Assembly: GCA_014730235.1 (NCBI GenBank)
Contig: WJIO01000124.1
Location: forward strand, 1 to 9,649
Direction: 5' to 3'
DNA length: 9,649 nt
Origin: Candidatus Poribacteria bacterium
GTDB taxonomy: Bacteria; Poribacteria; DTPJ01; WJIO01
This document shows, one piece after another, positions 1-9,105 of the stretch. The translations under genes were made by a program, and so were the position numbers. The notes beneath the pieces were generated by a model. The model made no database searches. It was not told the origin of the DNA and saw only the letters and a program-made list of their open reading frames with translations. Numbering within the stretch: the stretch's first letter is position 1; each line of letters begins with the position of its first letter.

Positions 1-86
1 AGTAACAAATAAAGTTTTTACGGACATAAATTTTGGACTATTAAAAATAAAGAGGTTCTTTGGTATTAAATATGTTATAATATTGT

Positions 87-150
87 TAATCATTAAAAAA
101 TGAAAAATATATTTAGAAAATACCTTTATAATAATGGTAAATTACAAAAT
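87..150 (+). repeat. Truncated family A MITE-like element (left end only)
   Basis: Bases 87-148 match the left two thirds of the complete family A copy at 9016-9104 with only a handful of substitutions. The left terminal repeat reads TAATCATTAAAAAATG, one base different from TAATCGTTAAAAAATG. The shared interior includes TTTAGAAAATACCTTTATAA. The right terminal repeat is missing: the match stops near 150, where the family B palindrome begins at 152. This is a degraded or interrupted copy, probably immobile. Confidence 0.75.
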
Positions 151-151
151 T

Positions 152-270
152 TGTCATTCCTGCGAAAGCAGGAATCCAGAAAAAACGCTATCCTGGAGAC
201 TGAATTCCTGCTTTCGCAGGAATGACAGCATAAAGAAGTTTCTTATCTTTACCACACTAAACCCGGAAGA
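152..270. repeat. Family B palindromic repeat, core hairpin plus right arm
   Basis: Two 24-base arms, 152-175 and 204-227, are perfect reverse complements (TGTCATTCCTGCGAAAGCAG... and its mirror). They are separated by 28 bases and could form a long hairpin. Bases 227-270 continue with a tail (starting AGCATAAAGAAGTTTCTTAT and ending ACCCGGAAGA) that recurs almost identically at 5375-5418. The matching outer left arm seen in the complete copy at 5220-5239 is absent here; a truncated family A element stands in its place. Repeats with this TCATTCCTGCGAAAGCAGGAAT core are widespread in bacteria as non-coding intergenic palindromes. Confidence 0.85.
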
Positions 271-364
271 AACAATATCTTAGTAACACAGCATTCCGTA
301 GCGCTAGAGGTTTTAGCTTCTTTTAAATAGCTTTCAAAAACTTGCTAATGAGGGGAATTACGTT

Positions 365-5173: not shown

Positions 5174-5219
5174 GAGATTACCTCCTTTAAAGGGGTGACT
5201 GAGATTGGTATCTTCTGAT

Positions 5220-5418
5220 TCTTCCGGGTTCAGTATGGTTATAATTGAAAATTTTCTCAGCTTGTCATTCCTGCGAAAATCTTATTCCTTTTTGCTCAAG
5301 CTTTTTGAAAAAGCTTGAAGCAGGAATCCAGTAGATCCGCATAAAGACTGGATCCCTGCTTTCGCAGAAATGACAGCATAAAGAAGTTTCTTATCTTTAC
5401 CACACTTAACCCGGAAGA
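5220..5418. mobile_element. Complete family B inverted-repeat element, about 200 bp
   Basis: The outer ends are imperfect inverted repeats, 18 of 20 matching: TCTTCCGGGTTCAGTATGGT (5220-5239) and the reverse complement of 5399-5418. Inside lies the palindromic core, beginning TGTCATTCCTGCGAAA (5263-5278) and ending TTTCGCAGAAATGACA (5360-5375). The tail 5375-5418 recurs at 227-270. No protein is encoded, so any movement would need an enzyme supplied elsewhere. I did not find an unambiguous target duplication. The element fills most of the 275-base gap between the two minus-strand genes. On the minus strand, ATGACA in the left core arm lies 19 bases before TATAAC near 5240, a weak possible promoter for the aminotransferase gene. 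Confidence 0.7.
5279..5319. repeat. 41-base palindromic insertion within the family B core
   Basis: Compared with the copy at 152-227, where CTGCGAAA is followed directly by GCAGGAATCC, this copy has 41 extra bases between the same two strings. The extra segment contains a near-perfect palindrome at 5296-5318, with TCAAGCTTTTT facing AAAAAGCTTGA around one central G. It separates the left core arm into two parts. It may be a small nested repeat or a replication-slippage product. Confidence 0.65.
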
Positions 5419-5448
5419 GCCACAAGTTTTAACAAGTGAGTAAACTAC

Positions 5449-6341: not shown

Positions 6342-6357
6342 CTATTTTTATTGAGGT

Positions 6358-6477
6358 GTAATCGTTAAAAAATGAAATATTTGTTTATAATAATTGCTTT
6401 TTCTATAGTCAATTATAGAATTTCTCATTACTATAAAGCTGTTTTTTTAAATATATCTTTAATTTTTTAACGATTAC
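6358..6477. mobile_element. Complete family A MITE-like element with candidate target duplication
   Basis: Perfect 16-base terminal inverted repeats, GTAATCGTTAAAAAAT (6358-6373) and its reverse complement (6462-6477), bound a 120-base non-coding AT-rich element. The six bases TGAGGT occur directly outside both ends (6352-6357 and 6478-6483), which fits a target-site duplication from transposition. The first ~30 bases resemble the copies at 87 and 9015, while the rest of the interior differs. An internal hairpin pairs TTCTATA (6401-6407) with TATAGAA (6414-6420). It sits between the isomerase-like gene and the response regulator and separates their control regions. Confidence 0.75.
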
Positions 6478-6545
6478 TGAGGTGAATCTGCAAAGCCTTT
6501 TTTATGCTTGACTGATTGTCATGGATCATTTACCCTAATTTATGC

Positions 6546-9014: not shown

Positions 9015-9105
9015 GTAATCGTTAAAAAATGAAAAATGTGTTTAGAAAATACCTTTATAATGATGGTAAATGACAAATAAATTATATCCATTTTTTAACG
9101 ATTAT
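9015..9105. mobile_element. Complete family A MITE-like element, short form
   Basis: TAATCGTTAAAAAATG (9016-9031) and its perfect reverse complement (9089-9104) bound an 89-base non-coding element. The left two thirds match the truncated copy at 87-148 closely. It begins 3 bases after the kinase stop codon and ends 8 bases before the ribosome binding site of the next gene. A transcript reading through could fold it into a 16-bp AT-rich stem. No clear target duplication is visible, although TATAAT occurs near both ends (9008-9013 and 9103-9108). No T-run follows, so it is not a standard terminator. Confidence 0.72.

Follow-up and report, generated by a model that had tools for sequence, protein, structure and literature searches.

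Short inverted-repeat elements of a Candidatus Poribacteria genome as a probable type II MITE family, with an IS1182-like insertion sequence as candidate partner

Results

The window, that is the whole stretch of 9,649 nucleotides of Candidatus Poribacteria DNA analyzed here, contains a 120-bp element that overlaps none of the listed open reading frames, two further copies of the same family (family A) and one copy of a second MITE-like family (family C; Table 1). The two ends of the 120-bp copy match over 16 of 16 bases (GTAATCGTTAAAAAAT), and TGAGGT is present on either side, exactly as a sequence-only reading of the window had stated. That reading had called the termini mirror images; the match is perfect, but the correct term is reverse complements. 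The outer arms of this copy (43 bases each) are 81% complementary, and its single-strand fold gave z = -6.3 to -6.7 in comparison with shuffles. No Rfam match was found in the window at gathering thresholds.

Two further copies had been proposed at 9015-9105 and 87-150. The first is indeed a complete copy of 91 bp, with T instead of C as its final base, and is located directly 3' of the stop codon of a histidine-kinase gene (9012), before the next gene. The limits given for the second were wrong: this copy starts at position 86, has a single recognizable family-A end and continues as a chimaera, with a hairpin region reaching to about 227 and half of a family C element to about 273.

Table 1. 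Features of the window, the candidate partner of family A and the nearest relative found of that partner
Feature	Position	Strand	Remarks
Family-A MITE, 120-bp copy	6358..6477	.	without reading frame
Terminal inverted repeat, left, GTAATCGTTAAAAAAT	6358..6373	+	
Terminal inverted repeat, right	6462..6477	-	
Target-site duplication TGAGGT, left	6352..6357	.	6-bp duplications in 15/57 copies
Target-site duplication TGAGGT, right	6478..6483	.	
Family-A MITE, complete 91-bp copy	9015..9105	.	shorter size class; without exact target duplication
One-ended family-A copy fused via REP-like hairpin (152-227) to family C right half	86..273	.	chimaera; right limit approximate
Family C copy (second MITE-like family)	5217..5421	.	
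Insertion sequence, 1311 bp	C228:12327-13637 (= L084:1106-2416)		perfect 17-bp ends
Insertion sequence, 1636 bp, Alicyclobacillus fastidiosus DSM 17978	16 loci found		transposase WP_268005238.1

Copy number, size and placement of family A

The abundance of family A was determined in the genome assembly (5.53 Mb, 451 contigs, 91.6% complete). The 17-base terminus GTAATCGTTAAAAAATG gave 235 matches with at most one mismatch and none for the reversed control, and a 15-mer of the terminus gave 372 matches with at most two mismatches, compared with 51 for the control. Since each copy has two ends, the 235 matches correspond to some 120 copies or more. The GTAATCGTTAAAAAATG terminus was absent or sporadic in the 57 other genomes compared from this phylum, with a maximum of 5 matches per genome. 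The ends are thus consistent throughout the genome when the copies found with the terminus are compared, and the proposal of a high-copy, non-autonomous element is borne out by copies that are numerous, short and devoid of a transposase gene.

As a sample of the copies, we catalogued 57 end pairs in stretches around the matches (148 ends, at most three mismatches). Nearly all of these pairs (55/57) span 57-270 bp, and they fall into size clusters of 91, 120-125 and 171-173 bp, besides larger ones up to 270 bp. The family comprises sub-families that differ in their interior. Two 91-bp copies are 100% identical and the best pair of 124-bp copies is 98.4% identical, and because of these near-identical copies family A has probably moved recently. 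A 231-bp element at C194:7059-7289 (in L073), one end of which is itself a 57-bp family-A element, is apparently composite or nested.

Family-A copies lie at unrelated places and mostly outside genes: 30 of the 35 testable copies were located outside reading frames of 100 codons, whereas 69% of positions drawn at random from the stretches concerned fell inside reading frames. Copies conserved at fixed gene positions, or identified as structured RNA, would have spoken against a mobile element in the sequence-only reading; the placement of the copies and the lack of Rfam matches in the window point the other way.

Target duplications and an empty site

An exact 5-bp duplication flanks 26 of the 57 catalogued pairs and an exact 6-bp duplication flanks 15, while shuffled flanks are expected to yield 0.92 and 0.49, respectively (41/57 compared with approximately 1.4 when both lengths are combined). 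For 15 of the 57 pairs, no exact duplication of 5-7 bp was found. The duplications are found directly outside the terminal G...C, and the duplicated sites are AT-rich, with a T-rich left and an A-rich right part. The 6-bp target duplication reported for the window copy is therefore real, but the length in the family is 5 or 6 bp and not a fixed 6 bp.

A comparison of occupied and empty sites had also been suggested, and within this genome it yielded one such pair. At C161:3165-3337, a 173-bp family-A copy interrupts a near-identical copy of the window-type element, and ATAAT is duplicated. When the insert and one ATAAT are taken out, the C161 flanks align without a gap through the junction with the reverse strand of the 120-bp window copy. 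Since the flanks rejoin in this way, the window copy represents the C161 target in its unoccupied form. This pair of an empty and a filled site is the most direct evidence of transposition.

A candidate autonomous partner

To find a partner, we searched the genome for DDE_Tnp_1 (PF01609), which matched at eight places. Only one of the eight matches, on contig C228, lies inside family-A ends. Here, a gene of 402 codons for a DDE transposase is situated between 17-bp ends identical to the MITE consensus, so that a transposase gene flanked by the same termini, recommended as a check by the earlier reading, does exist. The transposase scored 31.4 bits against DDE_Tnp_1 (cut-off 23) and was borderline for the upstream DUF772 (22.5 bits, cut-off 23.1); no solved structures were similar by sequence. 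One end of the insertion sequence shares 23-26 bp with many MITEs. Inside the ends, the best match between the insertion sequence and the MITEs was TTATAATGATGGTA-like and not significant (p = 0.07), and between the termini the MITE and the C228 element appear unrelated, as in type II MITEs.

The C228 insertion sequence is present in a single copy in the genome, is not flanked by a target duplication and was without a match in the 83 further genomes of the phylum that were searched. Its contig of approximately 14 kb is free of MITE copies and carries further genes of mobile type. Tetranucleotide agreement of C228 with other contigs was the lowest tested (0.47-0.49), with values of 0.57-0.72 for the others and 0.16-0.25 for foreign controls. 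Inspection by eye of the frames in L166 (C228:1-14000) indicated a tyrosine-recombinase-like frame, two IS630-type transposase-like pieces and frames resembling a HerA-like ATPase, a large NTPase and a PIN-domain toxin.

The leader of the C228 transposase gene (L084:2329-2394) contains AGTATCTCC...GGAGATACT. In a read-through transcript, this sequence forms a fold that covers the ribosome-binding site (z = -5.3); no such fold was obtained for a shorter transcript (z = -0.05). A guard against outside transcription is known for IS10 and IS50, and by analogy the leader may serve the same role here.

Other places were considered as autonomous copies and rejected. On C11, a terminus lies near a transposase fragment, and the intervening frames, one of 368 aa among them, were judged by eye to be unrelated to transposases. 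The end pairs on C198 (4.2 kb) and C225 (approximately 3 kb, weak end matches) enclose ordinary genes, and the pair on C271 (1.3 kb) consists of weak end matches.

Relatives of the C228 transposase

A single-sequence scan of genome contigs revealed no relatives of the C228 transposase, while an alignment of two sequences used as the query in the contig scan recovered 19 loci. The nearest relative found is encoded by the insertion sequence of A. fastidiosus and is 28% identical over most of the C228 transposase. Like the C228 element, the A. fastidiosus insertion sequence has G...C ends. It is flanked by 5-bp AT-rich duplications, which are exact in 14 of its 16 copies compared with 2.3 on shuffling. 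It is unlike the C228 element in its terminus (GAGCGTGTCCGAAAAGC), its length and its host, which belongs to a different phylum. A relative in Paenibacillus tianmuensis has GAGCCTGTTCAAAAAG ends with TGATA on either side. D143, D245 and E358 (RRLIE) are shared by both transposases in the alignment, which is consistent with a DDE triad as assigned on the basis of the fold.

The 5-bp stagger of the transposase group agrees with the 5-6 bp of the MITEs. Because distant relatives of the transposase make 5-bp duplications beside G...C ends, the link between transposase and MITE is supported independently.

It is conceivable, if rather unlikely, that the MITE is moved by a different transposase, which was lost or is missing from the assembly, and that the C228 ends are merely related. 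Such a scenario would fit the single copy of the C228 insertion sequence, its lack of a target duplication and its atypical contig, as well as an assembly of this number of contigs and this completeness, since repeated insertion sequences are frequently missing from such fragmented assemblies. However, the agreement of the 17-bp C228 ends with the MITE consensus, the 23-26 bp common at one end and the AT-rich 5-bp duplications that the transposase relatives produce next to G...C all argue for C228. The C228 insertion sequence is thus the likely autonomous partner of family A, the transposase of which would move the MITE in trans; the true mobilizer may be an unassembled sibling of this element.

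Comparison with the IS1182 family

The best NCBIfam model for the C228 transposase was IS1182 (NF033551). As the score of 46.4 bits is far below the cut-off of 270, the transposase is best described as IS1182-like, and not as a member of IS1182. It resembles the IS1182 family, which includes IS1272, in its DDE_Tnp_1 domain and in this best model, with DUF772 just below the cut-off. Some members of the IS1182 family target palindromes, and IS1272 is reported to take the place of inverted repeats on insertion, without forming duplications (PMC5678879). This mode of IS1272, which is not common to all IS1182 members, is absent here, where the MITEs are associated with 5-6-bp and the related insertion sequences with 5-bp duplications. 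IS1182-like subgroups therefore differ, since IS1272 is reported to insert without duplication and the C228 relatives generate one of 5 bp.

Discussion

Consistent termini, duplications of 5 or 6 bp, an empty site and a transposase element with the same ends support the MITE reading proposed for the window. We conclude with a probability of about 0.9 that family A is a type II bacterial MITE that depends on a transposase from elsewhere in the genome, the C228 insertion sequence being the likely source. According to the mechanism that we propose from the sequence data, the element would carry no more than a pair of transposase-binding ends (GTAATCGTTAAAAAATG and the complement of this sequence) that enclose an unrelated, AT-rich filler. 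Both ends would be bound by a DDE transposase encoded elsewhere, which would cut at the terminal G...C and join the element to a staggered 5-6-bp cut in an AT-rich, mostly intergenic target with a T-rich left and an A-rich right side, and gap repair would then create the target duplication. The transposase would be provided by the C228 insertion sequence or by a lost or unassembled relative. Binding, mobilization in trans and current activity of family A are presumed.

For prokaryotic MITEs, similarity to a partner in the ends alone is well documented (PMC3852290, PMC10969869). Family A resembles these type II MITEs in being short, AT-rich and non-coding, in its inverted termini and target duplications, and in its high copy number, mostly intergenic placement and homology to the partner in the ends only (PMC10969869; PMC3852290). 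It differs from them in its termini and its partner, which were unmatched in the sources compared. In the literature, a search with the terminal sequence returned nothing relevant. As far as these sources go, family A is new in sequence and partner and ordinary in kind.

We consider it very improbable that the copies are structured RNAs or terminator-like elements that are immobile and kept at fixed places. The strong fold of either strand (z of -5 to -10) and the location of the 91-bp copy, immediately after a stop codon and before the next gene, would suit such elements, but they would explain neither the 5-6-bp duplications, nor the empty and filled sites, nor the insertion into a copy of the own family; sub-families with differing interiors and the negative Rfam result for the window also speak against them. 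It is possible that some family-A copies were later used as RNA hairpins.

The findings add a MITE family that is well supported, and for which a candidate partner and a defined duplication are available, in a lineage without a close relative among the genomes compared. Furthermore, they suggest that one IS1182-like subgroup makes regular 5-6-bp duplications, in contrast to the hairpin replacement of IS1272.

Hairpins, family C and chimaeric copies

A REP-like hairpin, GTCATTCCTGC-N4-GCAGGAATGAC, occurs 250 times in the genome in the form with a 4-base loop and was found in none of 38 relatives. It is located inside many family-A copies and is absent from many others, including the 120-bp window copy. 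In the window, it is present at 152-227 and 5267-5375. The frequency of this hairpin and the one Y1_Tnp gene of the genome might recall REP-type palindromes spread by a Y1 (RAYT/IS200) transposase, an origin we regard as hardly credible for family A, given the many copies without the hairpin, the lack of any hairpin or family-A end in the 3.4-kb stretch analyzed around the single Y1_Tnp locus (a 156-aa open frame), and target duplications and long inverted ends, neither of which is known as a feature of Y1 elements.

Copies of the same MITE sub-families have the hairpin loop in either orientation (GAAA or TTTC), which suggests repeated inversion or exchange. Family C has GGTTCTTCCGGGTTCAGTGTGG-like ends with 343 end matches in the genome and none in 38 relatives, and exact 8-bp duplications flank 8 of 17 paired copies compared with 0.7 expected. 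In some cases, family C is nested in family-A copies, for example at C224, where TCATTTTT flanks it on either side, and at C232 and C321, where the flanking sequence is TAATTTTT. These family-A copies retain their own outer 5-6-bp duplications. A-type flanking duplications were likewise observed for some family-A copies carrying C inserts or C-derived sequence.

Nested and chimaeric copies of this kind are a natural record of the replacement of interiors with retention of the ends, the question behind type II MITEs. We tentatively propose, as a possibility that we consider less probable than not, that A, C and the shared hairpin are interchangeable modules, with loop flips, A/C chimaeras at the hairpin site and hybrids moving on A ends. 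The MITE population would then be remodelling itself in a modular way, with an undescribed IS1182-like subgroup, characterized by 5-6-bp duplications, as the driving force.

An ISL3 transposase is a possible partner of family C. ISL3-type transposase fragments are present in L177 (C342), L178 (C236) and L179 (C391). At least two of these fragments lie at the edge of a contig, and one of the three is accompanied by a weak 18/22 match to the family C end.
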